A DNA stretch of 64,000 nt from Acidobacteriota bacterium (lineage in GTDB: Bacteria; Acidobacteriota; Blastocatellia; Pyrinomonadales; Pyrinomonadaceae). Below the pieces are notes generated by a model, which saw only the letters and a list, made by a program, of their open reading frames with translations, did not search any database and was not told the DNA's origin. The position numbers and the translations under genes are program-made. Shown here piece by piece: positions 7,254-56,961 of this stretch. Each line of letters opens with the position of its first letter. Within the stretch, counting starts at the first letter, position 1. The stretch is taken from the NCBI GenBank assembly GCA_003697135.1, contig RFGC01000042.1, positions 62,001 to 126,000 of the forward strand, written 5' to 3'.

Positions 7254-7266
7254 GCGTCTGATAACA
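7254..7266 (+). repeat. 13-mer repeat copy (GCGTCTGATAACA)
   Basis: This is a plus-strand copy of the window-wide GCGTCTGATAACG word with the last base changed to A. It lies between rsmI and mutS. Confidence 0.85.
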
Positions 7267-7277
7267 CCTTCGGTGTT
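7263..7277 (+). terminator. Short hairpin between rsmI and mutS
   Basis: Six-base arms AACACC (7263-7268) and GGTGTT (7272-7277) flank a TTC loop and are followed by TTTTGC. This is a weak candidate terminator for the convergent rsmI and mutS transcripts. Its first arm overlaps the end of a copy of the 13-mer repeat. Confidence 0.45.
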
Positions 7278-7309
7278 TTGCTAATTTTCTTTTGTTCGTT
7301 GTTTTGGGG

Positions 7310-10009
7310 CTATATTATTTTGCTTTTCAGCTCAATCAGCAATTGCTTTGCCTCTGCGTCTGATAACGTTTCAGGATTTATTTGTCTCAATTCCTCAACA
7401 ACTTGTTCATTGACGATTGCAAATAAGCTGATTTGGCGTGCTATTTTGCGTCCTACGGCTTGCTTTAGTGCTTTGTCGCTTTGGTTTGGAGACGTTTTAT
7501 TTTCTGAGTTTTTTTCTGTTTTGCTTTCGGAAGTTTTATCTGATGTTTTTTCATCAGCGAGAACAGCGAGTTCATATTTTTCAAGTCTATTCAAGACTTC
7601 GCGAGCGCGTTTTATGACCGATTGAGGCAGACCTGCAAGTTGAGCTACGGCAATTCCGTATGATTTCGATGCTTTACCTTTTTCGAGTTTGTGAAGAAAA
7701 ATGACCTTACCGTCTTTTTCTACTGCTGTGATTTGATAGTTTTTTGCTCCCGGTAAGATTTCAGCTAGTTCTGTAAGTTCGTGATAATGAGTGGCGAAGA
7801 GCGTTTTAGCCGAGTGCTCGGGTGAATTATGAAGATACTCTGCAACCGCCCAAGCTATGGAAAGCCCGTCAAAGGTTGAAGTGCCACGTCCTATTTCATC
7901 AAGTAGAACCAAACTTCTCGGCGTAGCATTGTGCAAAATGGTTGCCGTTTCCGTCATTTCAACCATAAAAGTTGATCGTCCCGAAGCTAAATCGTCCGAA
8001 GCTCCGACTCTTGTCCAGATTCTATCTACGATAGGAAGCCTTGCCGAAGAAGCTGGAACGAACGAGCCTATTTGAGCAAGAATCTGTATCAGCGCAACCT
8101 GTCGGAGAATTGTTGATTTACCACCCATGTTTGGGCCTGTGATTATCAAAAGTCGGTCGGTAGAATTGTTCAAATAAATATCATTTGGAACGAAGGGTTC
8201 ATCAGAGAAAACTTCCACAATTGCATGTCTGCCTTGTTTAATTTCGATTTCGTCGCCTTCGTGAAGTATTGGCATTACATAGTTTCTTTTCACAGCAGTT
8301 TCTGCCAGCGATTGTAGGGCATCGAGCGTAGCAAGTGCGCGTGCGGTGGTCTGAAGTGTCTTTGTATATTTTTGAACTTGTTGACGGATTTGCGAGAAAA
8401 GCTCTACCTCTAGCTCTTTGATACGTTCTTCTGCACTCAAAACTTTCTGTTCCCACTCTTTTAGCTTCGGTGTGGTAAATCTTTCAGCATTCGTCAACGT
8501 TTGCCGTCTTTCATAATCGGCCGGCACTTTCGACAGGTTCCCTTTTGAAACTTCTATGAAATACCCAAACACATTGTTAAACTTCACCTTAAGATTCAAA
8601 ATTCCCGTTCGTTTTCTTTCTTCTTCTTCAAATGAGGCGATAATTTTCTTGCCGTCCAATGATATTTTTCTCAGTTCATCTAATTCCGAACTAAAACCTT
8701 CTTTTATTACGCCGCCTTCAGTAACATTTGCGGGAGCATCCTCATTTATCGAATCGAGAATCAGCCTTTGTATTTCCGGCAACGCATGAATGTTTTCTGC
8801 CAGCACCGTGAGCAGAGAACTTTGCGCGTCTGATAACGCATGGGAGATTTTTGGGACTTGTGCAAGCGACACTGCTAAGGCTCTCAATTCGCGAGGTGTT
8901 ATCGTTCCCAAATTAAGTTTCCCGATCAGCCTTTCTAAATCCGAAATTTCTTTGAGCGCAGAGCGGATTTTTTCTCTTAGCATCAAATCCGTAAGCTCGG
9001 AAACAGCTTCGAGACGAGTTTCTATTTCTGATTTCTTAATACATGGACGCAAAAGCCATGACTTGAGAAGTCTAGCTCCCATGCCAGTTATTGTCTGGTC
9101 AATCACTGAAAACAAGGTTTTTTTGTTTTGCTCGCTTCGGCTCTCGATGATTTCGAGATTGCGTAGCGTGATTGTGTCCAGAACCATGTAGTCTTTTTCT
9201 TCAAAATATTTGATTTCAGATACGTGATCGGCCATTGTGCGCTGTGTTTTGTGAGCATAATCAAGCACTGCACCAGCTGCGCGTATTGACTGAACTTTAT
9301 TCTCTATCTCAAAGGCGCTAAGTTCACGAACTTGAAATTGTTTTTTGAGTAAGTTCTTACAATCTTCCAAGTGAAAAGCCAAATTGTCTAAGGCTGTAAG
9401 CGTTATGTTGTTTTGAGGATTTTCTGACGAGCTGAACCTTGATTCAACAAGTTTTCTTAGAGACTCTGGAAAAAGAAGTTCGCGAGGATCGAACGACTCA
9501 ATTTCTTGGCAGATTCGCTCCCACGCATTTTCTGCCTTTATTTGGGTTGTTAGAAACTCTCCGGTTGAAATTTCTAAAAAGGCCGCACCGAAACAGTCGC
9601 CTGCACCACATACAGACGCCAGCCAAAGATTTTCACGAGGCTCTACCAACGCAGAATCAACGGCGGTTCCAGGTGTTATAACTCTAACAACTTCTCTACG
9701 AACCAGTTTCTTGTTTTTTGTAGCTTGTTCGACTTGCTCACAGATTGCAACTTTGTAGCCTTTTTTGATGAGTTTCGCAATGTAAGTCGAAGCGGCTGTG
9801 TAGGGAACTCCACACATCGGTATAGGATTGGGTGTGTCTTTGTGTCGTGCAGTTAGTGTAATTTCAAGTTCTCGTGAGCCGATTATTGCGTCCTCATTAA
9901 AAAGCTCATAAAAATCTCCTAGGCGAAAAAACAAAAGTATTCCGGGATATTTTTTCTTTATCTCCAAATACTGCCTAAGCATCGGAGTTATGTTCGCTAC
10001 ATTTTGCAT
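7310..10009 (-). CDS. mutS: DNA mismatch repair protein MutS
   Basis: MutS binds mismatches and recruits MutL through ATP-dependent clamp formation. The 899-residue protein has the N-terminal mismatch-reading domain with the Phe-X-Glu motif in RLGDFYELF. It also has connector, lever and clamp domains, a Walker A GPNMGGKSTILRQ near residue 625, and DEIGRGTSTFDG and THYHEL of the ATPase. The C-terminal part after about residue 820 is a variable Lys/Ser-rich linker. Two copies of the 13-mer repeat lie inside the gene (7356-7368 and 8826-8838) and are read as TLSDA and ALSDA in protein segments that are not catalytic. No mutL is in the window. Confidence 0.97.
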   Translation of the reverse strand: MQNVANITPMLRQYLEIKKKYPGILLFFRLGDFYELFNEDAIIGSRELEITLTARHKDTPNPIPMCGVPYTAASTYIAKLIKKGYKVAICEQVEQATKNKKLVRREVVRVITPGTAVDSALVEPRENLWLASVCGAGDCFGAAFLEISTGEFLTTQIKAENAWERICQEIESFDPRELLFPESLRKLVESRFSSSENPQNNITLTALDNLAFHLEDCKNLLKKQFQVRELSAFEIENKVQSIRAAGAVLDYAHKTQRTMADHVSEIKYFEEKDYMVLDTITLRNLEIIESRSEQNKKTLFSVIDQTITGMGARLLKSWLLRPCIKKSEIETRLEAVSELTDLMLREKIRSALKEISDLERLIGKLNLGTITPRELRALAVSLAQVPKISHALSDAQSSLLTVLAENIHALPEIQRLILDSINEDAPANVTEGGVIKEGFSSELDELRKISLDGKKIIASFEEEERKRTGILNLKVKFNNVFGYFIEVSKGNLSKVPADYERRQTLTNAERFTTPKLKEWEQKVLSAEERIKELEVELFSQIRQQVQKYTKTLQTTARALATLDALQSLAETAVKRNYVMPILHEGDEIEIKQGRHAIVEVFSDEPFVPNDIYLNNSTDRLLIITGPNMGGKSTILRQVALIQILAQIGSFVPASSARLPIVDRIWTRVGASDDLASGRSTFMVEMTETATILHNATPRSLVLLDEIGRGTSTFDGLSIAWAVAEYLHNSPEHSAKTLFATHYHELTELAEILPGAKNYQITAVEKDGKVIFLHKLEKGKASKSYGIAVAQLAGLPQSVIKRAREVLNRLEKYELAVLADEKTSDKTSESKTEKNSENKTSPNQSDKALKQAVGRKIARQISLFAIVNEQVVEELRQINPETLSDAEAKQLLIELKSKII
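7356..7368 (+). repeat. 13-mer repeat copy inside mutS (C-terminal end)
   Basis: Exact GCGTCTGATAACG on the plus strand. It is read on the coding (minus) strand as Thr-Leu-Ser-Asp-Ala near residue 882 of MutS. Confidence 0.95.
8826..8838 (+). repeat. 13-mer repeat copy inside mutS (core domain)
   Basis: Exact GCGTCTGATAACG on the plus strand. It is read on the coding strand as Ala-Leu-Ser-Asp-Ala near residue 392 of MutS. Confidence 0.95.
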
Positions 10010-10581
10010 AAGCGTCTTAAACCTTGCCAGTTTCGTTCTTAGACTATGATACGAAAATACGTTCTATTCAACAAAATTCCCGATTTTCCGCAATCAAAAC
10101 CCATTTTACTGTCTAACTTAATTGCGTCTGATAACGAAAGCGCTCGAGTTGAAAAATTATACGCGTCTGATAACGATTAGAGGGCACTCGGATTGAGTAG
10201 GGAAAGGGTGAAGTTGAAAGCTGTTGGGTCTGATAACGTTTAACTAGACTTGGTTAATGCATCTCGTCTCATTTACTTTGTGAGTTTGTTGTACTGCGGA
10301 TAACGCTTAACTGATTAAGTTTTAGAGTTTTCAAGGGCATGGCTAATTTGTCCTATGCGTTGAGCATGAACTTCAGACCCAAGTTAGCTTCTTTTTTTCT
10401 AATTTCTTTTCTAGGTTTATGAGAACAAGTTCGGCTTTGCACTCAAAGCCAGACCGTTAATTTTTCATTTTCCAATTTCTCCGTTCATCTTGATAGATTA
10501 GGATTAAGTGTTTTATGTTGTTAGTTTCGTTGAAATTTTGCTTGTGTTTTCTCGAACGGTGAAGATTCTTCTATGGTTTTT
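10010..10581 (+). repeat. Intergenic region with a cluster of 13-mer repeats
   Basis: This 572-base gene-free stretch lies between mutS and lysA. It holds exact copies of GCGTCTGATAACG at 10124 and 10163, a GGGTCTGATAACG variant at 10226-10238 and a degenerate copy ending GATAACG near 10299-10305. Spacing is irregular (39, 63 and about 67 bases), which rules out a CRISPR. The plus strand is visibly G-rich. No tRNA, riboswitch or credible small gene was seen. The promoter of mutS must be at its left end. Confidence 0.85.
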
Positions 10582-12006
10582 TTAGTTCTCCTCAAATACC
10601 TCATTTGCGATTAAGTCCTCGAAAGAGTCTCTCTTGCGGGCTACTTTGACGTTGCCGTTTTCTTCTACTAAAAGCACACAAGGCAAGAATCTACCGTTGT
10701 AGGGAAACATTTGTGCAATCGAATAAGCGCCACAGTTGAGAATTGCCAACAGGTCACCCGGTTTAGTGTTTGGTGGTAAGAGTCTGTAGTCAGGCAATCT
10801 TCCTTCACCTTCAATGTCAAAATAAACGTCGCCACCGTCACAAAGCGGGCCACCGATTTTGTAAGGATAAGAATGCTCTTCACAAGAGCGCTCGGCATGA
10901 ATCATTTGGTAATACCATTTGTAAGTTTCCATCGAAAGCAAGATGTTAAATCCTGCGTCCGTCAAAAGCCATGTTTCGGTTGTTGTAGAATTCAAAGTGT
11001 CTTTGTCTTGAGAATTCTGCGGTCTTTCCTTTTTGTTTCTGACAGTCGTGAGACAAATGCCAGCATCAGCGATGATGCTTCTGCCGGGTTCGAGAAGTAA
11101 AGTCAAATCATCAGTTTTAACTTCTGGAAAGTTTCTTTTAGCTTCTTTCCAAGCTTCACCGACGGCTTCGTAAGGCTCAAAATCCGCTGAAAAAATTTGC
11201 TTGACGGAAGGCGCAAAGTCTTTTTCTTGTGTTTTATCACGCAGGTAATTTACCGGAAATCCGCCGCCTAAGTTAAGGTGCTTTAGTTTAACATTGGCTT
11301 CCTTTTCTATTCGTAAGAGATTCTCAAACAAAAACAGCATAGCATTGGTGTATGAGGACTTATCAGGATTTTGCGAACCAATGTGAATATGAATCCCGCA
11401 AAGATTCAAAAAATCGCATGACTTGTAGTTCTTGAATGCAAAAAGAGCTTCATCAGGCATCATGCCGAATTTTGAAGTTGAAAGCGCTGTTTGCAAGCCT
11501 GAATGAGTTTTCGTTTCAACTTCAGGCACAAGTCGCAGGCTAACATTAGCTTTTTTGCCCATTTTTCGGGCTATTTTTCCGATTAAAGACAACTCATAAA
11601 GCGAGTCAACCTGTATTGCGTAGATTTCAGCCTCAATAGCTTTTTCTATTTCCCAATCTTCTTTGCTAGTGCCGTTGAAGATTATTTGCTCACCTTTGAA
11701 ACCTGCTTTTAATGCTTTCCAAAGCTCACCGCCGGAATTGACTTCAATGTCGCATCCGATTTTACGGATTGACTGCAAGATAGCCATGTTGGAATTAGCT
11801 TTCGCCGCATAGCAAACCTTTAGTTTGCAGTCTATTGCTTCTTCGACTTTGTAAAGCCTCTGAATGTTCTGTCTAATCCGCATTTCGCTGAATACGAAAA
11901 GCGGAGTGCCGAATCTTTCAGCAAGCTCTTTTGCGGAAAATTTCCCGATAAAAAGCTGATTGTCTTGCGCTCTTAAAAATCCTTCCAATTCCCAAGCTTT
12001 CGTCAT
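10582..12006 (-). CDS. lysA: Diaminopimelate decarboxylase
   Basis: LysA is a PLP enzyme that converts meso-diaminopimelate to lysine, the last step of lysine synthesis. The 474-residue fold-type III protein shows the PLP lysine in CYAAKAN, the glycine loop in LNLGGGFPVN, HIHIGSQ, LEPGRSIIADAG and the substrate-binding CDGGDVYF near the C-terminus. It is a little longer than usual because of inserts such as one around residues 325-340. Its start overlaps the nagZ stop by four bases, so the two are co-translated. The pairing fits peptidoglycan turnover supplying diaminopimelate, although that link is inference. Confidence 0.95.
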   Translation of the reverse strand: MTKAWELEGFLRAQDNQLFIGKFSAKELAERFGTPLFVFSEMRIRQNIQRLYKVEEAIDCKLKVCYAAKANSNMAILQSIRKIGCDIEVNSGGELWKALKAGFKGEQIIFNGTSKEDWEIEKAIEAEIYAIQVDSLYELSLIGKIARKMGKKANVSLRLVPEVETKTHSGLQTALSTSKFGMMPDEALFAFKNYKSCDFLNLCGIHIHIGSQNPDKSSYTNAMLFLFENLLRIEKEANVKLKHLNLGGGFPVNYLRDKTQEKDFAPSVKQIFSADFEPYEAVGEAWKEAKRNFPEVKTDDLTLLLEPGRSIIADAGICLTTVRNKKERPQNSQDKDTLNSTTTETWLLTDAGFNILLSMETYKWYYQMIHAERSCEEHSYPYKIGGPLCDGGDVYFDIEGEGRLPDYRLLPPNTKPGDLLAILNCGAYSIAQMFPYNGRFLPCVLLVEENGNVKVARKRDSFEDLIANEVFEEN

Positions 12007-13868
12007 TTTTCGGATTGCATGTTTTGAGATTTTTTTAGACTGATGCCAGTTCCTTTCGGAAATCCCGGCATTATTGTAATCGGAAGTTTCCCTTTGAAAT
12101 CTATCTCACCGATAATCGCTCGTGCCGTTGCCGCTTGCAAACTCGGCATGTCACCATAAGCTACAATATAAGTCCCAAGTGATGGGAAATCTCTCAATAG
12201 ATAAGGATTTCCAAAACTGATGCCCACGATTTTTTTCTTTTCCGCGATAAGGCTTTCAATCAGTTTACGCCCTTTTTCCGGCATCTCGATAGAATTTCTT
12301 GCCCCAGAACGGACTCTAACGAAAAATCCACCCAGCACAATATCGCTTTCGGCGATTTCTTTAGTGATTTTCTCGAGTTCATCCTGAGTAGTTCTATCGT
12401 TTATTTGACCGATTTTTAAGCTGGCAAAGGAATTTCTGCGCAGTGTTCTTACAAATTCTTCGCCGATATATTCGGGGGCTTCCTGATTTGTGATGGCTAA
12501 AAAGAAAATCTTTTTGTCTTTTGCCAATGGCAGGAGATTGTCATCGTTTTTGACGAGCGTAATTGCATTTTCGGCGATCTCGGTTGCTAGTTGTCTTGAA
12601 GAACGATTTGAAACGATTCGATCAATCGCATCGAGCGGAACTGTTTTTTGTTTTGTTAGTCCGAGATAGTATTTCCATGCAAGTTGTTTGCGAACAGATT
12701 CGTTGATTCTCTCTTCGCTTAATCTGCCTGATTTTACAGCTTCACGGATGCCACGGATTGCTTCATTTGCATTTGTAGGTTTTAAGATTATGTCTGCACC
12801 TGCCTCAATTGCCCGAACTGCCGCTTCATCTTGAGTAAAATAAATCGTCAAGCCGCTCATGTCCATTGCGTCGGTTACTATCAAACCGTCAAATTTCATC
12901 TCATTTTTCAGTATATCGGTTACGACCTTTTTCGACAGAGTAGCTGGTATCGTTGCGTCTTCGACTATCACTTCTTCGTCCGTATAGGTGGCTCTGTATC
13001 TGTCTTTGAGTGGTGTAACTTTTTCTGAATCAAGTTCCGGTAGTGAAATATGAGAAATCATTACCGACGCAACGCCAGCTTTTATGGCTTCACGAAACGG
13101 ATAGAGTTCATACTCATCAAGTCTTTTGCGTGAAACTTTGATTACAGGCAAACCTCTGTGCGAATCAATGTTCGTATCGCCGTGGCCGGGAAAATGTTTT
13201 GCAGTAGCTATGACACCGCCACTTTGCAAGCCTTCGATAAACGCAATTGCAAACTTTGCTACTTCTTTAGGGTCTTCGCTGTATGAACGAACGTTGATGA
13301 CGGGATTTTCGGGATTATTATTGACATCAACGACGGGAGCGAAAACTTGATGGACGCCTAAAGCTCTTGCTTCTCTCGCTATTATTTCACCTTGTTTTCG
13401 TGCAAATTCTGGATTTCCGGTTGCGGCAACTGCCATATTCCATGGGAAAACAAGAGTATCTTCAAGTCTCATCCCAACACCGGTTTCAAAGTCTGCCGAA
13501 ATCAATAGCGGAATATCTGCAAGCTCCTGCATTCGATTCATCAGGTGAACCGTTTCGTAAACATGTCCGACGAAAAATATAATTCCACCGATTTTGTTTT
13601 CGACCACCTGGCGTTTTAACTGCTGAAATTCCCAACTATCCTGTGGGAGAAACCTTGCATTGATTCCGATATGGACCAGTTGGCCGACTTTTTCGTCTAA
13701 GGACATCTTTTTGAGCTTTTCATCAGCCCATTTCCAAGCATCTTCCGAAGGACGGAACTTGCTTTGTCCTAAAGCTTGGAAATCTCCAGAAACCGAACTT
13801 AAAAAGAATGTTCCGAAAAGCATAAGTTTCAGAATTGCTGAAATTTGCTGTAAAGTTGGGCTTTTCAT
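12003..13868 (-). CDS. nagZ: Exported glycoside hydrolase family 3 beta-N-acetylhexosaminidase
   Basis: The protein has 621 residues. The N-terminal signal peptide ends near residue 35 and a GH3 catalytic barrel follows. The NagZ signature is present: KHFPGHGDTNIDSHRGLP, whose Asp-His pair is the acid/base. The nucleophile is in GLIVTDAMDMSGL. A GH3 C-terminal domain follows. NagZ removes GlcNAc from muropeptides. Here the signal peptide indicates periplasmic rather than cytosolic action, as in Bacillus NagZ. A NamZ-like protein, the known partner in periplasmic muropeptide recycling in some bacteria, is at 49454-50626. Confidence 0.92.
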   Translation of the reverse strand: MKSPTLQQISAILKLMLFGTFFLSSVSGDFQALGQSKFRPSEDAWKWADEKLKKMSLDEKVGQLVHIGINARFLPQDSWEFQQLKRQVVENKIGGIIFFVGHVYETVHLMNRMQELADIPLLISADFETGVGMRLEDTLVFPWNMAVAATGNPEFARKQGEIIAREARALGVHQVFAPVVDVNNNPENPVINVRSYSEDPKEVAKFAIAFIEGLQSGGVIATAKHFPGHGDTNIDSHRGLPVIKVSRKRLDEYELYPFREAIKAGVASVMISHISLPELDSEKVTPLKDRYRATYTDEEVIVEDATIPATLSKKVVTDILKNEMKFDGLIVTDAMDMSGLTIYFTQDEAAVRAIEAGADIILKPTNANEAIRGIREAVKSGRLSEERINESVRKQLAWKYYLGLTKQKTVPLDAIDRIVSNRSSRQLATEIAENAITLVKNDDNLLPLAKDKKIFFLAITNQEAPEYIGEEFVRTLRRNSFASLKIGQINDRTTQDELEKITKEIAESDIVLGGFFVRVRSGARNSIEMPEKGRKLIESLIAEKKKIVGISFGNPYLLRDFPSLGTYIVAYGDMPSLQAATARAIIGEIDFKGKLPITIMPGFPKGTGISLKKSQNMQSEK

Positions 13869-13889
13869 TTTCCCTTGCTCCTTGTTTTG

Positions 13890-14414
13890 TTATATTGCTT
13901 TTATTTGGTTGACCGAGAGCAAAACAGCAGTGAAATGATGTTGAGTGTGTCCACCAAAAAGCGTTCCCTTTGCTTCAACAAGCTTCCCAACTAATTTTTT
14001 TGCTTTTCTGTAATCACTCAAGGCTAATTGGATTCTTTGAACATTTTTTTGCTGAAGGTTGAATTCGTTATTTAGGTCTTCGTTAACGCAAATGGGCTTA
14101 CTAAGTTCCAGCAAGAAGACGTTTTCCCGTTTGTTTGAGGCATTGATAAAAGTTCGACGCACAAGACGTCCGCGCAAGCTAACTATTTCAGGTTCATAGT
14201 TTAAGCATGACCGCGTTTGTCTGAAAATTATACCACTGTTGGTGTTTGGTTTTGCTATTTCATTTTCCAGATCAGCAATTTGCAAAGTTTGAAGTCCAAA
14301 CGTAGCAGGCAGTTGAACAATTGCTTCTTGGGCTTTTACGTTGTTTTTTCCTTGCCAAAGCATAAGCCCGAGAATGAATAAAACTGATAAGCACGCAAAA
14401 TATGAAATCTTCAT
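13890..14414 (-). CDS. Secreted DUF4431-like protein
   Basis: This 174-residue exported protein has a signal peptide of about 28 residues. The conserved part, SCLNYEPEIVSLRGRL, ELSKPICV, VQRIQLALSDY and KGTLFGGHTQHHFTAVLLSV, follows the DUF4431 pattern. Function is unknown. It is separated from nagZ by only about 20 bases and is probably in the same transcript. Confidence 0.7.
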   Translation of the reverse strand: MKISYFACLSVLFILGLMLWQGKNNVKAQEAIVQLPATFGLQTLQIADLENEIAKPNTNSGIIFRQTRSCLNYEPEIVSLRGRLVRRTFINASNKRENVFLLELSKPICVNEDLNNEFNLQQKNVQRIQLALSDYRKAKKLVGKLVEAKGTLFGGHTQHHFTAVLLSVNQIKAI

Positions 14415-14499
14415 GATTGTTTTCGTCCTTTAATCGAGTATGTTTTCCGAATGCTTCTTTTGGAAGAAGATTAAAAATCCTAGGGAGCATTTCGGAGAA

Positions 14500-16864: not shown

Positions 16865-16868
16865 CTTT

Positions 16869-24747: not shown

Positions 24748-25126
24748 TGCTTCTTCAATTATCCGCGTCTGATAACGTATTGAGAAGTGTCGATTAGAGA
24801 GAGTGCGCGTCTGATAACGAAAGAAGCAACAACGGAAAATTGGGTCTGATAACATCTTGAGCTTTGTATAATCACTGGGTTTGCAAGATAGAATAGATTG
24901 CAAGTATAAGTTGCAAATTAAAGAAAATTGAGTTTGCGTCTGATAACGCTATAGGATGAGTTTGAGCGATGCAAACAGGATTACGGGCTGGGGTTTTTGA
25001 GGTTCTACGAAAAATAGATTTCGTGAGATGAAAAGGCGGTTTGGAGTTTGTGATGCAAAGAGGTTGTAGTGTGAAGAGATTGGTTTCGTAAAAAGAAAAA
25101 TCTAGCAGTTAGGAAGATTAAGGTCT
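24748..25126 (+). repeat. Intergenic region with four 13-mer repeats
   Basis: This 379-base gene-free stretch has exact GCGTCTGATAACG copies at 24765-24777, 24807-24819 and 24936-24948 and a GGGTCTGATAACA variant at 24842-24854. I counted 88 G and 31 C in 24781-25080, a very strong G excess. No hairpin terminator or clear promoter was seen. Confidence 0.9.
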
Positions 25127-28707: not shown

Positions 28708-28741
28708 GCGTCTGATAACAAAAGATACGCGTCTGATAACG
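28708..28741 (+). repeat. Two 13-mer repeats between moaD and moaE
   Basis: GCGTCTGATAACA at 28708-28720 and exact GCGTCTGATAACG at 28729-28741, 21 bases apart, begin 14 bases after the moaD stop. Confidence 0.95.
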
Positions 28742-28824: not shown

Positions 28825-29313
28825 ATGGAAAGCCGAAGCGTTGTGAATAAGAAGGGAAAGGTGGACTTTTGGGCGTTGACGACTGAGCCTTTGGATGTTG
28901 GCAGGATAGCTAGAAGGATCGTGCCTGAGACTTGTGGAGCAATAGTTACCTTAGATGGATTCGTTCGGCGATTCACGAAGGGGAAGGAGACGCTGTATTT
29001 GGTTTATGAAGCTTATGAGGCAATGGCTTTGAGAGAAATGGAAAAGCTTATTGAGCAAGCTCATGAAAAGTTTGATATAGAAAGCGTCAGCATGGTGCAT
29101 AGACTTGGCAAGCTTGAGATAGGCGAAACAAGCGTCGTTATATCTGTTGCCGCTCCTCACAGAAAGGCTGCTTTCGAGGCTTGCCAGTGGCTTATCAAGG
29201 AACTTAAAAGAACTGTCCCTATCTGGAAAAAAGAGGTTTACAAAGACGAAGAAATATGGGTTGAAGGCGAAGAGAATTTTAGTGAAAATGCGTCTGATAA
29301 CGATCAACCTTGA
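28825..29313 (+). CDS. moaE: Molybdopterin synthase catalytic subunit
   Basis: MoaE combines with MoaD to convert precursor Z into molybdopterin. The 162-residue protein has GAIVTLDGFVRRF, LVYEAYEAMALREM, VHRLGKLEIGETSVVI, HRKAAFEAC and the catalytic lysine segment VPIWKKEVY. The last few codons (ASDNDQP) lie beyond the conserved domain and contain a 13-mer repeat, so the C-terminal tail was apparently extended through it. Confidence 0.95.
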   Translation: MESRSVVNKKGKVDFWALTTEPLDVGRIARRIVPETCGAIVTLDGFVRRFTKGKETLYLVYEAYEAMALREMEKLIEQAHEKFDIESVSMVHRLGKLEIGETSVVISVAAPHRKAAFEACQWLIKELKRTVPIWKKEVYKDEEIWVEGEENFSENASDNDQP

Positions 29314-29341
29314 TGAAAGTTAATACTTGCGTCTGATAACG
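29290..29341 (+). repeat. Two 13-mer repeats at the end of and after moaE
   Basis: Exact GCGTCTGATAACG at 29290-29302, read in frame as Ala-Ser-Asp-Asn-Asp within the MoaE tail, and at 29329-29341 just after the stop. They are 39 bases apart. Confidence 0.95.
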
Positions 29342-31885: not shown

Positions 31886-31944
31886 GCGTCTGATAACGTA
31901 TAGGATTTAATGTATCACTGAAGAATCATGCGCGTCTGATAACG
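31886..31944 (+). repeat. Two 13-mer repeats downstream of the Dph6-like gene
   Basis: Exact GCGTCTGATAACG at 31886-31898 and 31932-31944 lie between convergent genes, 46 bases apart. Confidence 0.95.
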
Positions 31945-32673: not shown

Positions 32674-32686
32674 GCGTCTGATAATG
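32674..32686 (+). repeat. 13-mer repeat variant GCGTCTGATAATG
   Basis: One-base variant of the repeat located between the acyltransferase and alanine racemase genes. Confidence 0.85.
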
Positions 32687-34157: not shown

Positions 34158-34233
34158 TGGTAGCGCCAACGGGATTCGAACCCGTATTTGCGGCTTGAGG
34201 GGCCGCCGTCCTAAGCCCTTAGACGATGGCGCC
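34158..34233 (-). tRNA. tRNA-Glu (anticodon CTC)
   Basis: The minus-strand gene folds as a cloverleaf. Acceptor GGCGCCA pairs with TGGCGCT (first pair G-T) and ends in the encoded ACCA. The D arm is CGTCTAAGGGCTTAGGAC. The anticodon stem GCGGC/GCCGC encloses the loop CCCTCAA and the T-arm is CGGGTTCGAATCCCG. With seven loop bases the anticodon is CTC, for glutamate. The base before it is C rather than the nearly universal T at position 33, which is odd. The identity agrees with the general shape of bacterial tRNA-Glu. Confidence 0.9.
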
Positions 34234-43191: not shown

Positions 43192-43219
43192 GCGTCTGAT
43201 AACAGATATTATGTAAAGC
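43192..43219 (+). other. Candidate chromosomal dif site (XerC/XerD)
   Basis: A 28-base site with XerC-side arm GCGTCTGATAA (43192-43202), central CAGATA (43203-43208) and XerD-side arm TTATGTAAAGC (43209-43219). The arms have the ATAA and TTAT inner ends of known dif sites, and the right arm agrees well with the Bacillus TTATGTAAACT and E. coli TTATGTTAAAT arms. It lies in a gene-free stretch. The plus strand has G 49 and C 19 in 43019-43191 but about G 28 and C 32 in 43220-43380. Confidence 0.7.
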
Positions 43220-45833: not shown

Positions 45834-45848
45834 AACTTTAGTCTGGGA

Positions 45849-48871: not shown

Positions 48872-48883
48872 GCTGTCATGCTG

Positions 48884-49431: not shown

Positions 49432-49453
49432 AAGAGTTTATTTTACTCAAGGT

Positions 49454-50626
49454 TTAGTCATAAAGCAGGTATCTTTGGCGCTTTTTTGCGAAAGTTTCTT
49501 CGTCTTCCTTCCATGACTGAACGATCTCTTGCAGGCTGCATCCGCTTTCTATTTGCACTCTCAATTTGTTTGTTCCGGCGATTACATCGAATGGATTTTT
49601 GTCAAAGACGTATTCGTATGGGGGTTCTTTCCATCTAAAGTCAAGAGGGTAGAGATCGTGTATGGTTTTCAGCAACGCTATTCCTGTTAGGACAGGCTTG
49701 AACTCCCTTCTATTTGTGACATGCAGAAAAACTCCACCACAGCTTTTTCCTGAGTGCTTTTGGAATGTTGGTATGAAATTCACTGGGCGGAAGATCACCC
49801 CTGGGAGTTGTAGTGCGTTCATCTCTTCGGCCAATTTTCTTGCATCTATGTATGGTGCGCCGATCATCTCGAAAGGTCTAGTGGTTCCTCTTCCTTCAGA
49901 GACTTGAGTTCCTTCAAAGAAGACTGTTCCGGGAAAAACGACAGCCGTATCAACGGTTGGCATGTTAGGTGATGGCATGACCCAAGGGGCGTCGGTTTCG
50001 TCGTAGAAGTAATTTCTCTTCCAGCCCTGCATCTCCAATACCTGCAAGCTGCAGTTAATGTTGAATTCTTGGTTAAACATCAATGCAAGTTCTCCAACCG
50101 TCATTCCATGTCTCATGGGTATCGGGAACATACCTACAAAAGATTCGTAGCCGCTTTCAACCAAGTTTCCTTCTATTTCTATCCCACCTATTGGGTTGGG
50201 TCTGTCTAGCACTATGAATTCCTTGTTGTTTTCTGCACATGCCAACATGGAGTTGGCCATTGTGTAGATGTAAGTATAGACCCTACACCCTACATCTTGC
50301 AGGTCAAACAGCAAGGTGTCTATATCTTTCAGCATCTCCGCAGTAGGCTTTCTGGTTTCACTGTAAAGAGAGAACGCGGCAATGCCTCTATACGTAGAGT
50401 GAGGCGTTTCTATCATGTTGTCTTGAACATCTGTGTTGAATCCGTGCTGTGGGCCAAATATCGCTTTTAGTTTTAGGTCTTTGTCTTCAAGCAGTAGGTC
50501 TGCTGCGAAGTTGTATTTGTGGTTGACGGAAGCCTGATTGCATATCAACCCTATTCGTTTGCCTTTCAACAGGGACTTTTTCTCCGATAAAAGCCTTTCT
50601 AAGCCAAGTTTTACTTTTCGCTTCAT
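49454..50626 (-). CDS. DUF1343 protein, NamZ-like exo-beta-N-acetylmuramidase
   Basis: The 390-residue protein belongs to the DUF1343 family, whose Bacillus member NamZ releases terminal MurNAc from peptidoglycan fragments (GH171). Conserved blocks are IGLICNQASVN, FGPQHGF, LLFDLQDVGCRVYTYIYTM, VLDRPNPIGG, MPSPNMPTVDTAV and FEGTQVSEGRGTTRPFE. The protein has no signal peptide, so it would act in the cytosol unless exported otherwise. It pairs functionally with the NagZ-like enzyme at 12003-13868. Confidence 0.9.
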   Translation of the reverse strand: MKRKVKLGLERLLSEKKSLLKGKRIGLICNQASVNHKYNFAADLLLEDKDLKLKAIFGPQHGFNTDVQDNMIETPHSTYRGIAAFSLYSETRKPTAEMLKDIDTLLFDLQDVGCRVYTYIYTMANSMLACAENNKEFIVLDRPNPIGGIEIEGNLVESGYESFVGMFPIPMRHGMTVGELALMFNQEFNINCSLQVLEMQGWKRNYFYDETDAPWVMPSPNMPTVDTAVVFPGTVFFEGTQVSEGRGTTRPFEMIGAPYIDARKLAEEMNALQLPGVIFRPVNFIPTFQKHSGKSCGGVFLHVTNRREFKPVLTGIALLKTIHDLYPLDFRWKEPPYEYVFDKNPFDVIAGTNKLRVQIESGCSLQEIVQSWKEDEETFAKKRQRYLLYD

Positions 50627-50738
50627 GATTTCCTTATTTCCTTCGGAGTAGTTAAAATTTCATCTTCGTTCAGGAAACTGTGTTTTGTCAATTTGTTAGA
50701 CCTGGTTTGAAGTTTTAAGATGGATTTTTTGGGTTCTT

Positions 50739-51275
50739 ATGCCGGGGAATTTTCATGCGACTACCGTCATCATGGTCAAGAAAGACGGTAAAACTGTGAT
50801 GGCGGGTGATGGGCAAGTTACTCTGGGCGAAACGGTTTTGAAAAGTAACGCAAGAAAGGTTCGCCGTCTATACAATGACAAGGTTCTCGTGGGGTTTGCA
50901 GGCGCTACAGCTGACGCTCTTGCTCTTCTTTCGAGATTAGAATCAAAGCTGGAAGAGTGTCAAGGGCATTTGGGCAAGGCTGTGATTGAACTTAGCAAAG
51001 ACTGGAGGACTGATAGGATTCTGAGGCATTTGGAGGCACTGATGATAGTTGCTGACAAAGAGAGTGCGTTTTTGGTTTCCGGCAAGGGCGATGTCATATC
51101 TCCTGAAGAAGGATTGCTTGCTGTGGGATCGGGAGGGATGTATGCTTTGGCTGCGGCACGCGCTCTCATGAAGCATACTAATCTTTCCGCTCGCGATATA
51201 GCAGAAGAGTCTCTCAAAATTGCGAGTAGCATCTGCATTTACACAAATTCTGAAATCGTTGTGGAGGAGTTGTGA
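50739..51275 (+). CDS. hslV: ATP-dependent protease subunit HslV
   Basis: HslV is the proteolytic core of the HslVU (ClpQY) complex. The 178-residue protein has the start [26 protein letters not shown], given here in outline; the mature N-terminal Thr follows cleavage of the short propeptide. [20 protein letters not shown] and ICIYTNSEI match the family. It overlaps hslU by one base, so they are translated together. Confidence 0.97.
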
Positions 51276-52636
51276 TGTTGAGCTTGGAGAAAAAGTTAGA
51301 TGAGTTAACGCCTCGCCAGATCGTTGAAGAGCTTGACAAGTATATCGTAGGGCAGACCAAGGCGAAAAGAGCTGTCGCCATTGCCTTGAGGAACCGCATC
51401 CGTAGGCAAAAGCTTCCGCGTAGCATTGCCCAGGAAATTCTCCCGAAGAATATCTTAATGATAGGCCCGACGGGCGTTGGCAAAACAGAAATCGCAAGGC
51501 GTCTTGCAAAGCTCTCCAATTCCCCTTTTGTGAAGGTAGAAGCCTCGAAGTTCACCGAAGTAGGCTACGTTGGCAGGGACGTTGAAAGCATGGTGAGAGA
51601 ACTCGTAGAGGTTGCTGTTGAGATGGCAAAGCAATCTGCTTTTGAGGAAGTTCGTCCTAAAGCGGAAGCAAATGTCGAAGAAAGATTGCTTGACATTCTT
51701 TTTCCTCGCTTTGATCAAGAACATAGTGACGCTGATAGAACTGAGAGATTCAATCGCACTAGGGAAAAGCTACGTCAACAGCTGCGCGCAGGTGAACTTG
51801 ATGACAGATTTGTCGAAGTTGATGTTCAGGATCGTTTTGTTCCCTTCATTGACGTTGTCGGAATTGGTGGACAGGGTTTTGAAGAAATGGGAGTCAATTT
51901 CGGCGATGTTTTGAGCCATTTATTTCCACGGAAAACAAAGAAAAAAAGGCTCAAAGTGTCTGAGGCAAGGCAGTATCTGCTCAGGGAAGAACAAGAAAAT
52001 CTGATTGATATGGAAGCGGTTATCCGATCTGCTATCGAGAGAGCCGAAAACTCGGGGATTATCTTCTTGGATGAAATAGACAAAATTGCTGGTAGAGAGT
52101 CTGGTGTCGGACCTGATGTGTCGCGTGAAGGAGTTCAAAGGGACCTTCTGCCGATAGTCGAAGGAACTAATGTTAATACTCGCTATGGGATGGTTAACAC
52201 GGAACATATCCTGTTTATAGCCGCTGGTGCTTTTCATGTCTCGAAACCCTCGGATTTAATTCCAGAGTTGCAGGGTAGATTTCCGATTAGAGTTGAGCTG
52301 GAAGCATTAGGTGCTGAAGATTTTAAGCGAATCCTTAAAGAACCTAAGAATTCGCTTATTAAGCAGTATGAAGCGCTTTTAAGCACTGAAGGCATTACAC
52401 TCCGCTTCACTGACGACGCTATTGAAGCCATAGCCGAAATGGCTGATTATGTTAATCGAATGACTGAAAATATTGGAGCGCGCAGACTTCACACGCTAAT
52501 GGAAAGGCTTTTGGAAGATATAAGTTTTGAAGGGGCTGATCTCGAAGAAAAACTCCAGATTATCGATGCGGATTTTGTTAAGAGAAAGCTTGAAGCAGTT
52601 GTTAAAGATGTTGACTTAAGTAATTATGTATTATAA
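51275..52636 (+). CDS. hslU: ATP-dependent protease ATPase subunit HslU
   Basis: HslU is the AAA+ unfoldase that feeds HslV. The protein of about 453 residues has [21 protein letters not shown], Walker [29 protein letters not shown], Walker [10 protein letters not shown] and the C-terminal domain ending in VDLSNYVL, which reaches into HslV. The start is ATG 51275, five bases after GGAGGAG; a GTG lies three bases earlier. Confidence 0.97.
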
Positions 52637-52664
52637 AGCTGTTGCTTAAAATCCTGCTTAAGTT

Positions 52665-53690
52665 ATGCACTCTACCTTTATTAAAGCAAATTTAGTGTTT
52701 ATATTTCTTGCATTGTTTAACTTCGCTTGTGGTAAGCGTCTTCCGCCTATGCCTCCTTCCTCTCGAGTTTCTCCACCAGTAAAAGTGGCTGGATTTCAAA
52801 GGGGAAGTAATCTAATCTTGTCATGGCAGCTTCCTCCTGGCACTTCGAGAACTGATGTTTATCGTTTTGTCGAATCATCTACTGCTTCGCCCGGAGTAAC
52901 CAAGGAGGATTTTTCTGCCCGCAGCATCTTGATAGCTTCTGTGTTAGGTGATGCTTCATACTCGGATAGGTTGGAATTTGCTGATCAGCCAGTTCGTGTT
53001 TACTATGCCGTGAGATTTGTCAATGAATTTGGTCAAAAAAGCGATTTTTCTGAGTTTCTGGTTATTCAACCCGTTCCGAATGTTTCGCTTCCGCCTTCCC
53101 TTCTTTCTGTTGATGTCTCGCAAGACAAGCTTACCGTTAAGTGGAAGGAACCAAATGAGAATGTTGATGGTTCATCTCCTCCTAATGTTCGAGGTTATAA
53201 TGTCTATCGCGTTGAGAAGGGCAGTGAATTAAAAAAGCTTAATTCTTCTCCTGTTTCATCGGATTCTTTTGATGATTTTTTCTTTGAGTTTGGAGTGTCT
53301 TATAAGTATTTCGTCAGAAGTGTCTCACTTGACAAAGATGGAAATTTCATAGAAAGTGACGATTCAAATATTTTTGAGGTCGTGCCTAAAGACGTTTTCC
53401 CGCCTTCTCGTCCTGAAGGGCTAAGTGTAGCAGCTTCGCCGGGCGCTATTTCGATTTTCTTTGCTGCAAGCCCTGAAAAGGATGTAGTTGGTTATTTTGT
53501 TTTCCGTTCTGAGGACCCGAATTTGCCGCTTTTGCAATGGCAAAAACTGAATGTTGAGCCTTCTGAAATTACTGCTTTTAGCGATCGGAATGTTCAAAGC
53601 GGAAAGACTTACTATTACTTTGTGAGAGCTGTAGACAAGTTTGGCAACTTGAGTGAGCCATCTGAAGTAGTGGCTGAGACTTTACCTTGA
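52665..53690 (+). CDS. Lipoprotein with fibronectin type III domains
   Basis: The 341-residue protein has a short signal sequence with a Cys at residue 22 (FNFACGKR), a likely lipidation site. It is followed by a proline-rich linker and three fibronectin type III-like modules, about residues 40-130, 140-230 and 240-340. Their Trp/Tyr pattern is visible in WQLPPGTSRTDVYRF, VKWKEPNENVDG and YYYFVRAVDKFGN. It is likely anchored to the outer membrane or cell surface and may bind polysaccharide or protein. Function unknown. Confidence 0.75.
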   Translation: MHSTFIKANLVFIFLALFNFACGKRLPPMPPSSRVSPPVKVAGFQRGSNLILSWQLPPGTSRTDVYRFVESSTASPGVTKEDFSARSILIASVLGDASYSDRLEFADQPVRVYYAVRFVNEFGQKSDFSEFLVIQPVPNVSLPPSLLSVDVSQDKLTVKWKEPNENVDGSSPPNVRGYNVYRVEKGSELKKLNSSPVSSDSFDDFFFEFGVSYKYFVRSVSLDKDGNFIESDDSNIFEVVPKDVFPPSRPEGLSVAASPGAISIFFAASPEKDVVGYFVFRSEDPNLPLLQWQKLNVEPSEITAFSDRNVQSGKTYYYFVRAVDKFGNLSEPSEVVAETLP

Positions 53691-53699
53691 GGAGTTTCT

Positions 53700-54494
53700 A
53701 TGAAGTTAGCAAGGTTCGTTTATGAGGGAGTAGTTTATTGTGGACAGGTCAGAGACAGTGAAGTTTTTCCGCTGGGAAAGTCGGAATTTTCCTTGGTGAA
53801 AGATGTCTGGGAAAAATGGGAAAATGTTATCAGACCCATTTCCTTATCGAAGGTAAAGCTTCTTCCACCAGTTCAACCATCGAAAATAGTCTGCGTTGGT
53901 AGAAACTATGTTGCTCATGCGTTAGAACTAGGAAACTTAGTTCCTGAAGAGCCGCTCATTTTTTTGAAACCGCCATCATCTTTAATCGGTCATGAGGATT
54001 TTATACTTCTTCCCCCTCAATCGTCTAGAGTTGAATGCGAAGGAGAGCTGGCAATCGTTATCAGACGCGAATGTCAGTTCCTTCCTCTCGACTCTGATGT
54101 ATCCGATTATATTCTCGGCTACACTTGCCTGAATGATGTAACTGCTAGAGATATACAAAAGAAAGATATCCAATTCACACGTGCGAAGTCTTTCGATACT
54201 TTCTGTCCTCTGGGGCCGTTTATCGCAACAGACATAAATCCTTCTAATCTCTGCATAACTACAAAGGTTAACGGAAACATAAAACAACAAGCTCGAACTT
54301 CTCAAATGGTTTTTTCGGTTGATTTTCTGGTAAGATATATCTCTCATCACATGACCTTGATGCCTGGTGATGTGATAGCCACGGGAACTCCTGCAGGAGT
54401 TTCAGAACTTCACGATGGCGATGTTTGCGAAGTTGAAATAGAAGGCATCGGTGTTTTGAGAAACTTTGTGAAAAAGAGGATAAAGGGATTATGA
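53700..54494 (+). CDS. Fumarylacetoacetate hydrolase family protein
   Basis: This 264-residue metal-dependent hydrolase/decarboxylase has [24 protein letters not shown], the metal ligands [10 protein letters not shown] and [14 protein letters not shown], and [12 protein letters not shown]. Members act on 2-oxoacids such as acylpyruvates or oxaloacetate. The substrate is not determinable. It overlaps the transaldolase gene by four bases. Two 13-mer repeat copies, in reverse orientation, lie inside it (53825 and 54056). Confidence 0.88.
53825..53837 (-). repeat. Reverse-oriented 13-mer variant inside the FAH-family gene
   Basis: The minus strand reads GGGTCTGATAACA, the same variant as at 24842. 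It is read in the gene as Asn-Val-Ile-Arg-Pro. Confidence 0.8.
54056..54068 (-). repeat. Reverse-oriented 13-mer inside the FAH-family gene
   Basis: The minus strand reads exact GCGTCTGATAACG. It is read in the gene as Ile-Val-Ile-Arg-Arg, just after the metal-ligand motif. Confidence 0.95.
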
Positions 54495-55141
54495 AGTTCT
54501 TTATTGATACGGCAAATCTGGATGAGATTAAACAAGCTTCTGAAATGGGATTGATTGATGGTGTAACAACTAATCCTTCTCTCATAGCAAAGGAAGGTAA
54601 CGTTGATTTCAAAGAACATATACGCAAGATTTGCGAGTTGGTAAGTGGAGATGTATCTGCTGAAGTAACAGCAGTTGATACCGAAGGAATGCTTCAGCAA
54701 GCGAGAGAATTGGCTTCAATAGCTCCGAATGTCGTCATAAAGTGTCCGCTTACACTTGAGGGACTCAAAGCTACCAAAATCCTAAGCAGCGAAAATATAA
54801 AGGTAAATGTCACTTTGTGCTTCTCTCCAGCTCAAGCTTTGTTAGCTGCTAAGGCGGGCGCAACCTATGTTTCCCCTTTCATAGGAAGACTAGATGATGT
54901 CGGACATGACGGAATGCAGCTGATTCGCGATATCGTCCAAATATACAAAAATTACAACTTCCCTACGCAAGTTTTGGCCGCTTCCATAAGACATCCTAGG
55001 CACGTGATTGAATCAGCATTAGCTGGCGCTCACGTGGCTACAATCCCGTTTAAGGTTATACAACAGCTCGTGAAACATCCCTTGACGGACAAGGGACTAG
55101 ATGCATTCCTGGCTGACTGGAAAAAGAGCGGAAGAAGTTGA
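54491..55141 (+). CDS. tal: Transaldolase (TalC/MipB type)
   Basis: This 216-residue short transaldolase of the pentose phosphate pathway shows [28 protein letters not shown], the Schiff-base lysine in [19 protein letters not shown]-type context (the catalytic region ending [13 protein letters not shown]) and [10 protein letters not shown]. The short form is related to fructose-6-phosphate aldolase, so either activity is possible. It overlaps the preceding gene by four bases. Confidence 0.92.
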
Positions 55142-55174
55142 TAAAGTTTGCGAATTTGTTATGATGTCTAAGTT

Positions 55175-55630
55175 ATGAAAGTGCTTTTAGCAACAGATGG
55201 AGGCAAACATAGCCAAGCGGCGGTAGAGGCTATACGAATTCTGAACCCTGAAACACTGACAGAACTCAAAATTATCTCAGTAATAGACATGAGTGTCCCG
55301 CTAGCGATTGACATATATGCGGGATACCTTCCTTCGACTGCTGAGATTGAAGCTGCAGCAAAAGAAACTGCTGAAAATATACTCAAAGAAGCATCCCAAA
55401 AAGTGTCAGAGATGCTTGGGAATAAACCAGTCAAAATAACAACGGAAATCTTGGTAGGCTCACCAGAAAGCGCAATTGTCGAAACTGCTGAGCAAATGCC
55501 CGCAGACCTTATAATTGTCGGTTCTCATAGCTACAACCGCTGGGAAAGATTGCTCCTAGGTTCGGTCTCCGACTCTGTCGTGCATCATGCTCACTGTTCT
55601 GTATTGATTGTCAAAAGCCAAGCAGGTTAA
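55175..55630 (+). CDS. Universal stress protein (UspA family)
   Basis: This 151-residue single-domain protein has LLATDGGKHSQAAVEA at the start and the nucleotide-binding GSHSYNRWERLLLGSVSDSV near the end, which matches the G-2X-G-9X-G-(S/T) pattern. Role: stress response, mechanism not defined. Confidence 0.9.
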   Translation: MKVLLATDGGKHSQAAVEAIRILNPETLTELKIISVIDMSVPLAIDIYAGYLPSTAEIEAAAKETAENILKEASQKVSEMLGNKPVKITTEILVGSPESAIVETAEQMPADLIIVGSHSYNRWERLLLGSVSDSVVHHAHCSVLIVKSQAG

Positions 55631-55636
55631 ACTCTT

Positions 55637-56419
55637 ATGCTTTACTTCGAGAAGCTCGGAACAGACTCGAAAAATGTGTGTGTTTTTCTTCATGCTTTTC
55701 CGCTTGATCGTGAAATGTGGCAGCCACAAGTAGAAGCATTGAAGGAAAAGATGCAGGTGATTTTGATTGACTTGCCGGGATTTGGAAAGAGTCTGCCCAT
55801 CAAAAATTTGTCGATGGAATTTATGGCTTCCGAGGTCATAAGAACGCTCGATAGCTTAAAAATAGAAAAAGCTATCTTTGTGGGGCTTTCAATGGGCGGA
55901 TATGTTATCTTCAACCTCTATAGGCTCTTTCCGCAAAGAGTCTCAGCAATGGTTCTATGCGACACGACTCCAGCTTCCGACTCTGAAGAAAGAAAATCAA
56001 TGCGGTTTGAGTTGATAGAACAAATCAAATCACAAGGGGTTGAGGTCCTAGCTCAACAAATGCTCCCCAACCTCGTTTCAAAACATACAGCCCTTAATAA
56101 CACTCTTCTTATGGAGTGGTTAAGACAAAAATTTCTTAACGTAAATCCTGAAGCTGCAGTTTCAGCTCTCAAAGCCATGGCAGATCGCAAAGATCATACT
56201 GAATGGATTTCTAACATAAACGTCCCTACCTTACTTATTTTCGGCGAAGAAGATAAGGTAACGAACATCGAAATGGCTGAAAAGATGAACTCTGTCATTG
56301 CAAATTCGTCTCTTGTAAGAATCGCAAATGCTGGTCATTACTCCAATCTAGAAAATCCTGAAGGGTTCAACTCAGCGTTGATTGGATTTATAGAAAGGCA
56401 TTTTCCCAACGACAAGTGA
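55637..56419 (+). CDS. Alpha/beta hydrolase
   Basis: This 260-residue protein has the oxyanion region VFLHAFPLDREMW, the nucleophile elbow GLSMGGYV, the acid-site loop IFGEEDKVT and the final His in ANAGHYSNLENP. It looks like the 3-oxoadipate enol-lactonase/esterase group. The substrate is unknown. Its stop overlaps the GTG start of the DUF402 gene. Confidence 0.88.
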   Translation: MLYFEKLGTDSKNVCVFLHAFPLDREMWQPQVEALKEKMQVILIDLPGFGKSLPIKNLSMEFMASEVIRTLDSLKIEKAIFVGLSMGGYVIFNLYRLFPQRVSAMVLCDTTPASDSEERKSMRFELIEQIKSQGVEVLAQQMLPNLVSKHTALNNTLLMEWLRQKFLNVNPEAAVSALKAMADRKDHTEWISNINVPTLLIFGEEDKVTNIEMAEKMNSVIANSSLVRIANAGHYSNLENPEGFNSALIGFIERHFPNDK

Positions 56420-56943
56420 AAGTTCTTAACATAAACGCAAGAAAGCTCAACCAAAAAACTCAAAAGTCATGGCAGGCCGAGCTGATTACCCAGAACGAGA
56501 AGTTCATTCTTCTTTCTGGACAGTTCGAGAAAGAAATATGGCATCCCCATCTAAACGTTATCAGACGCGGCACAATCTCCTATGAGTTCTTTTGGTGGGA
56601 AAAGTGGTATAGTATATTCAGATTTCACGAGCCAGATGGTAAGTTCAAAATCTTCTACTGCAACATAAATTTGCCACCTATTGTCTCAGATAACACTTTA
56701 GATTATGTTGATCTTGACATAGATATAATTGTCCGAGAGGACATGTCATACAAAATTCTCGACTTAGAAGAATTCCAACAAAACAGCTTGAAGTTCTCTT
56801 ATCCCGAAGAAATCGTAAAAAAATGCTTCAAAAGCCTTTGTGAGCTACAAGCAATGATAAACGCTCGCTCCTTTCCTTTCAACCTTCCTCTCGACCTTCC
56901 CCTAACTGGTTTAATTCTCCAACGTTATCAAACTCAACCCTAA
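56416..56943 (+). CDS. DUF402 domain protein
   Basis: This 175-residue protein has a GTG start and a DUF402 core (RWY-like WWEKWYSIFRFHEPDGKFK, YYC-like FYCNINLPPIVS, LDYVDLDIDIIV, YPEEIVKKC). Characterised relatives are nucleoside tri- and diphosphate phosphatases or RNA-associated proteins. The exact activity is not known here. A reverse-oriented exact 13-mer repeat lies inside at 56556-56568. Confidence 0.75.
   Translation: MKVLNINARKLNQKTQKSWQAELITQNEKFILLSGQFEKEIWHPHLNVIRRGTISYEFFWWEKWYSIFRFHEPDGKFKIFYCNINLPPIVSDNTLDYVDLDIDIIVREDMSYKILDLEEFQQNSLKFSYPEEIVKKCFKSLCELQAMINARSFPFNLPLDLPLTGLILQRYQTQP
56556..56568 (-). repeat. Reverse-oriented 13-mer inside the DUF402 gene
   Basis: The minus strand reads exact GCGTCTGATAACG. 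It is read in the gene as Asn-Val-Ile-Arg-Arg. Confidence 0.95.
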
Positions 56944-56948
56944 CACTT

Positions 56949-56961
56949 CGCTATCAGACGC
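56949..56961 (-). repeat. Reverse-oriented 13-mer variant between convergent genes
   Basis: The minus strand reads GCGTCTGATAGCG, one base different from the consensus, just after the DUF402 stop. Confidence 0.85.

Follow-up and report, generated by a model that had tools for sequence, protein, structure and literature searches.

A 64,000-nucleotide stretch of a Pyrinomonadaceae chromosome (Acidobacteriota; positions 62,001 to 126,000 of contig RFGC01000042.1, assembly GCA_003697135.1; hereafter the window, meaning the whole of that stretch) carries many copies of a 13-base word, GCGTCTGATAACG, one of which is the left arm of the chromosome's own dif site. The word matches the XerC arm of dif, is polar, lies near the replication terminus and is conserved in the class, and in informative genomes it coincides with a switch in strand composition that stands away from dif. 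One-way copies of half a dif site whose polarity flips near the replication switch suggest a mechanism, not described before, that would fix the place where replication ends. Our best reading of these observations, to which we give an even chance, is that XerC half-sites make up a replication fork trap.

A polar word concentrated near the terminus

The genome of the window (G000 in our numbering of genomes; contigs, genera and loci likewise carry our own handles) is a draft of 47 contigs and 2.79 Mb, 97% complete, in which the window's contig is C19; subtracting 62000 from a C19 coordinate gives the window coordinate. We found 23 matches to GCGTCTGATAACG in the window with at most two mismatches (14 exact, six with one mismatch and three with two), against an expectation of 0.84 (standard deviation 0.87) and a maximum of three over 100 shuffles. 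Eighteen lie on the plus strand at 7254-43192 and five on the minus strand at 53825-56949. The initial annotation, which had reported about 22 polar copies and 18 or 19 plus-strand copies with none on the minus strand left of 43.2 kb, was therefore right in both respects; the copies that it placed to the right are likewise all on the minus strand, and number five rather than four, since that at 56923, with two mismatches, had been missed.

Across G000 the exact word occurs 70 times (43 plus, 27 minus) and its reversed control never, and the 11-mer GNGTCTGATAA occurs 93 times (59 plus, 34 minus; control, three). Contig order and strand are arbitrary in a draft, so that the 43:27 total is uninformative and polarity per contig is the meaningful measure. 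Counted in this way, as a genome-wide strand count had been proposed from the outset, copies of GNGTCTGATAA share one polarity on each contig that has at least two of them (C4 with five copies, C13 seven, C14 two, C18 nine, C20 two, C21 four, C26 22 and C33 six), with the sole exception of C19, where 22 plus copies are followed by 11 minus copies and the single flip falls between window positions 43192 and 53825; C43, C44 and C45 have a single copy each. The earlier claim of a polar word that on either arm points, in its 5' to 3' sense, at the terminus is upheld, and the word is conserved in relatives. Eight contigs amounting to 770 kb of the 2.79 Mb hold 88 of the 93 copies, and contig C24, which carries dnaA and a large smc frame, has none. 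In a 436-kb set of G000 sequence, GTCTGATAAC has a strand ratio of 81:0 where a second-order model expects about 0.3 per strand; all contigs of this set except C19 were oriented via the word itself, so ratios given for it show one-strandedness per contig.

Most copies are clustered, 72 of the 93 having another within 150 bp, and no helical phasing was detected among 48 short word spacings (R 0.20, p ~0.16). On C18, C19 and C26, 49 of 64 copies lie outside open reading frames (ORFs), compared with 8.9% of bases. These 49 are on the same strand as the gene to their left in 39 cases and on the opposite strand in 10, and of the 15 copies within ORFs four are on the ORF strand and 11 against it; word polarity tracks the replichore rather than transcription. 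A logo from 90 G000 sites reads Y-G-C-G-T-C-T-G-A-T-A-A-C-G-N-W, the base preceding the first G always being T or C, and the flanks of these sites have nothing in common beyond ~16 bp. We saw no sign of a mobile element, and reject a mobile element or repeat on account of these flanks and of the Rfam scan given below. As a separate observation, the canonical KOPS (FtsK-orienting) motif GGGNAGGG, rare at 42% GC, is also polar, 11:1 in the same direction in the oriented G000 regions, and an ordinary KOPS system may coexist with the word in this genome.

The word matches the XerC arm of dif

The copy at 43192, on which the initial annotation did not remark, is the left arm of the G000 dif (43192-43219, plus strand; GCGTCTGATAA-CAGATA-TTATGTAAAGC, for XerC arm, centre and XerD arm) and is the innermost plus word. 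This dif agrees with that of B. subtilis at 20 of 28 positions. Its right arm we take to be the XerD arm by its match to known dif sites, and the word is therefore read as the XerC arm (GCGTCTGATAA) plus CG; that it represents an XerC half-site is strongly supported by these sequence matches. In G000 the identity extends over the complete 11-bp XerC arm, which has a strand ratio of 89:1 in the 436-kb set, against 3:3 for the XerD arm TTATGTAAA, which is not repeated. A Chi-like or uptake word, the former raised in the initial annotation, is rejected on the concentration of copies near the terminus, without over-representation chromosome-wide, and on the membership of one copy in dif.

Dif-like sites of relatives share an arm reading GCGTC(T/C)GATAA or GAGTC(T/C)GATAA; in G001 the dif arm reads GAG, yet most words keep GCG. 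Allowing up to two mismatches, a two-arm dif pattern finds a match in 32 of 60 genomes, a figure that includes chance matches, the reversed control matching in 18 of 60. Relatives' dif sites were accepted only with the correct layout and context, and the correct layout was seen in several families. Two tyrosine recombinase genes were found in G000, of which one scores above the XerD cut-off and the other scores best with XerC, slightly below the cut-off (331.6 vs 335.15); FtsK with a gamma domain is also encoded. All six genomes searched for SMC have frames of that type (1236-1296 aa), and a Tus homologue was detected in none of six, the E. coli control being positive.

Strand composition switches beside words and away from dif

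In five Pyrinomonadaceae (G023, G027, G072, G073 and G076) word polarity flips 8.6-10.4 kb off dif, and six words (two in G076 and one in each of the others) point away from dif. The flip interval extends to dif in G000, G001, G022 and G050; since that of G000 starts at dif, the window alone cannot decide whether the flip is off dif. The innermost opposed pair of words is 1.3-1.7 kb apart in six genomes from four genera (G017, G023, G027 and the same-genus G072, G073 and G076), this set being the six genomes read; fragments bearing similar pairs occur elsewhere (e.g. in G074, G075 and G122). In all six, the raw cumulative GC-skew maximum sits between the paired words, so that two opposed polar sets bracket the switch, and its distance from dif is 9.4-9.8 kb in the five with dif located.

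Taken by itself, GC skew is confounded with the direction of genes: the mean skew is negative in the 3 kb beside dif, where genes oppose the fork. As gene orientation also skews composition, we fitted a switch model to 4-fold degenerate sites with gene orientation as a covariate, running it twice, with G and C only and then with all four bases, on 25 regions. A switch off dif was favoured over one at dif by a log-likelihood gain of 126 in G001, 35 in G000, 12 in G027, 9 in G023 and 7 in G076, and in each of these five genomes the 2-unit switch interval contains a word or ends no more than 0.5 kb from one. Among the close-pair genomes, the controlled model agrees with the raw skew in placing the switch between opposed sets in G023, G027 and G076. 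Genus g1 (G000 and G001), with a different gene order, is a more independent case than the close-pair genomes, and there it is the composition switch, not the word flip, that stands 12 kb from dif. The inferred G000 switch (C19 116407-118107, window 54407-56107, best estimate 55907) lies between the minus words at C19 116054 and 118554, and the raw cumulative GC-skew peak is at 55904-55908. In G001 the switch (83779-84478) adjoins the last plus word (83925), both inside one gene. Within one reading frame of G001, the 4-fold G:C count, taken without the word, changes at 84200 from 25:17 to 10:34, and the keto:amino count is 64:48 and then 57:142 (Fisher p = 1e-6, an optimistic value because the 84200 split was taken from the model).

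Elsewhere the modelled switch is at dif in G022 and on chromosome 1 of G050, within 1.8 kb of it on chromosome 2 of G050, intermediate in G030 (+10 kb, wide) and G040 (+4 kb), and ambiguous in G058 (dif or +8.7 kb). The two runs are concordant for G000, G001, G022, G023, G027, G076, both G050 chromosomes, G030 and G040, roughly so for G073 and G033, and discordant for G072, G103, G117, G044 and G058 (+8.1 kb in the first run; +0.4 kb, reaching up to +8.7 kb, in the second); ranges are wide or end-limited in G003, G009, G014, G092, G110 and G126. Counting words within 60 kb in all 25 regions and leaving dif out, the polarity of 116 of 126 words is concordant with the modelled switch. In G030 (C1 74918), dif itself opposes the modelled switch, while both strict words agree with it.

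Distribution among relatives

The exact word occurs in 77 of 162 genomes of the class, its own genome counted. In a sample of the phylum it was found in 30 of 396 genomes, comprising 26 of 47 within the class and four of 349 outside it (six copies). Relatives in the class have fewer polar copies near dif than G000. In genus g3, where the exact word is missing, the dif arm shows one base change at most. Among named genomes, close word pairs were found in one record, Pyrinomonadaceae SSF31, on a contig matching G117:C1, with records of the window's own genome possibly left out; G117 and G000 belong to the same family, f1.

A single polarity flip within 60 kb of the terminus is present in G001, G023, G072, G027, G073, G076, G017, G022 and both chromosomes of G050. 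The last genome, which we presume to be Chloracidobacterium thermophilum, has chromosomes of 2,683,362 and 1,012,010 bases. On chromosome 1, with dnaA at base 1120 and dif at 1463555, seven of eight copies of GTCTGATAAY (dif counted) fall within 67 kb and the flip is just past dif; chromosome 2 has its own dif (C2 353070) with flanking polar half-sites, six copies in all with a single flip.

The neighbourhood of dif in G023, G072, G027, G073 and G076 contains an adjoining ParB-family gene, an unusual site for such a gene, and dnaE, accA and ssb no more than 10 kb away; this assignment comes from Pfam on G023 only (L078:18799-19680, L079), the others having been grouped by BLAST. Near dif in the regions scanned for parS, we found scattered matches at 13 of 16 positions and nothing better.

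A candidate fork trap and its competitors

In the proposed mechanism, half-sites would act singly, all facing the same way over the final part of each replichore, where XerC, or a complex containing it, would form a one-way barrier. Forks coming from the origin would meet the 5' GCG end first and pass, and forks that have run past the terminus would meet the 3' ...ATAACG end and be stopped. Two opposed sets of words would then constitute a trap whose innermost members fix the place where forks meet; dif would be one member of the array, and the meeting point could lie elsewhere. A sharp switch beside a word and off dif is the expected trace of such a polar barrier. XerC binding to single half-sites, and fork arrest there, we infer from the sequence patterns.

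Several observations weigh against this proposal. Any system selected for pointing along the arms would flip where the arms meet, and simulations by Kono and colleagues in 2012 preferred other models to termination at dif (extracts of PMC3317982). Each close pair has one word in the same conserved gene (gene family 2), an arrangement kept in four genera, and the six close pairs are for that reason largely one inherited arrangement. Model fits were weak or uninformative for G072, G073, G017, G003 and G014, all five uninformative in the controlled model, and for the g9 genomes G009, G033, G092, G103, G110, G117 and G126. Two further switches have no adjoining word and weak gains, namely that of G044 (gain 8) at +38 kb and that of G112 (gain 10) at -13.7 kb, spanning 148421-149321. 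The 10 words discordant with the modelled switch comprise two each in G000, G014 and G003 and one each in G076, G072, G017 and G040, and both G000 words are in the window, at 53825 and 54056. Measured against the raw skew maximum, which is weak or at the edge in G009, G014 and G126, polarity agrees less well, at 109:17, and misfits occur past 60 kb (e.g. G023 168249 and G072 1862124). Where dif lies more than 1.5 kb from the modelled switch, its own orientation fits the rule in 15 of 19 regions, G030 being an exception. Six g9 genomes for which both sides were read (G092, G103, G110, G112, G117 and G126) have words on the dif side only, and in most of these the skew is too weak for placing the switch. 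Finally, the exact word is absent from genera g3, g10, g11 and g21, which belong to the same family.

The half-sites might instead release SMC complexes that come from the origin, much as XerD unloads SMC near the terminus in B. subtilis (extracts of PMC12322038, PMC8357415, PMC8242196 and PMC13342612), here through XerC and directionally. SMC-type frames are present in the six searched genomes, the sites are Xer half-sites that lie near the terminus and are absent from the dnaA/smc contig, and SMC unloading would likewise need polarity along the arms. This account predicts repetition of the XerD arm, which is not repeated, and by itself leaves unexplained a composition switch that is in the middle of a gene and no more than a few hundred bases away from a word; we consider it rather unlikely. 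Steering of FtsK toward the terminus by the word, as a part of dif, is a less probable explanation again. A free-standing KOPS, the type proposed in the initial annotation, is not supported, given the identity of the word with the dif XerC arm plus CG and its concentration near the terminus, with 88 of 93 copies in 770 kb of 2.79 Mb. The origin-to-terminus polarity on both arms and the FtsK gamma domain speak for steering in the broader sense; the 13-bp length of the word, its clustering near the terminus and the polarity of the canonical motif itself speak against it. KOPS-type function is further disfavoured by the flip 8.6-10.4 kb past dif in five genomes, with six words pointing away. This last argument is not uniform over the 25 regions, as 11 words stand in the interval from dif to the modelled switch, of which six point away from dif and five toward it (two in G000 and one each in G076, G003 and G040), and between dif and the raw skew maximum the split is 6:13, with 13 of 19 toward dif.

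The left arm of dif could also serve a protein other than XerC, with the sites acting as its barriers or landmarks. CG is favoured after the arm in the words, as opposed to TN in most relatives' dif sites, and the predominance of GCG in G001 words beside a GAG dif arm means that they are no plain copies of the local dif. With the whole 11-bp XerC arm identical in G000 and no Tus homologue in six genomes, we judge such a protein improbable, by a shade more so than FtsK steering. That the words are non-functional relics, whether Xer insertions or recombination products or a mutation-biased repeat following the leading strand, is very improbable. Among 29 orthologous gene gaps, the one word-bearing G000 gap, of 225 bp, corresponds to a wordless one of 12 bp in G001, which suggests gain of the word with added DNA; the single orthologous gap with a G001 word is nearly equal in length in the two genomes, at 182 and 179 bp. 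Relics would also have to account for polarity maintained across genera, for the opposed pair with a word in the same gene in four genera, for flanks without any longer repeat and for the excess of copies outside ORFs.

Placement of words in the window

The leftmost words, on the plus strand at 7254-7368, are a one-mismatch copy at 7254 and an exact copy at 7356, the latter in the 3' end of a mutS-like ORF (7310-10009); another exact plus-strand copy (8826-8838) lies within the same ORF, which is a minus-strand gene. Further plus-strand words form intergenic clusters of three (10124, 10163 and 10226; 10124-10238) and four (24765, 24807, 24842 and 24936; 24765-24948), an intergenic pair at 28708-28741, a pair spanning an ORF 3' end and the adjoining gap (29290-29341), two exact intergenic copies at 31886-31944 and an intergenic one-mismatch copy at 32674-32686. 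The first minus-strand word (53825-53837, two mismatches, in a plus-strand ORF) and the exact word at 54056-54068 are those violating the rule, as they precede the modelled switch by ~2 kb, toward dif, and three more minus-strand words at 56556-56961 (56556 exact, 56923 with two mismatches and 56949 with one) stand just past it. The G000 dif is flanked by genes for DAHP synthase and S-adenosylmethionine synthetase. The only RNA gene detected in the window is a tRNA-Glu (CTC) at 34158-34233, an Rfam scan at the gathering threshold giving no other family.

Comparison with known systems

Like KOPS, the word is polar and points toward the terminus on both arms; unlike KOPS, it is longer, lies near the terminus, is part of dif and converges away from dif in five genomes. 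In B. subtilis, XerD reportedly mediates the unloading of SMC at the terminus (Karaboja 2021, as cited in later papers). That system resembles the present one in that a Xer recombinase would act near the terminus outside dimer resolution, at a site that is one arm of the chromosome's own dif, and differs from it in that here the arm is that of XerC, the sites are polar and they coincide with the replication switch.

The dif-stop model of Hendrickson and Lawrence (2007), as presented in extracts of PMC3317982, also ties the composition switch to Xer and dif, and the modelled switch is indeed at dif in G022 and on G050 chromosome 1; the model departs from what we find in G000, G001, G023, G027 and G076, where the modelled switch is off dif and beside isolated half-sites. 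In the same extracts, simulations favour a fork-trap model over dif-stop in other bacteria, and the occurrence of the GC-skew switch so near dif is termed enigmatic. A lineage whose switch is off dif and yet at isolated XerC half-sites separates dif and switch as variables, so that a part for Xer proteins in setting the end of replication becomes testable, with the word as a directly assayable sequence.

According to extracts of PMC10331603 and PMC13220808, fork traps occur in few bacteria, which form a small group, and depend on one of two unrelated proteins, Tus or RTP. Among the titles and abstracts listed in literature searches, whose coverage excludes most subscription papers, we recognised neither half-dif words as fork barriers nor this word. 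We suggest tentatively, and at somewhat less than an even chance, a third type of bacterial fork trap that would be unrelated to either protein, in which XerC on isolated polar dif half-sites, expanded in G000 to ~93 and mostly clustered there, would both end replication and resolve dimers. As in RTP-Ter of B. subtilis, the innermost opposed sites are close together (extracts of PMC13220808); RTP sites are made of two half-sites bound by dimers (extracts of PMC10331603), whereas those described here are single asymmetric 13-bp words matching the XerC arm. As in Tus-Ter of E. coli and its relatives, opposed sets of polar sites surround the terminus and the switch lies between or beside the innermost of them. 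The sites here differ from Ter in being half-dif sites, in forming tandem clusters in G000 and in occurring without a Tus homologue in the six genomes, and also in their relation to dif, which in E. coli lies between the innermost sites (extracts of PMC10331603) but here stands outside that pair in all five genomes with both a close pair and a located dif.

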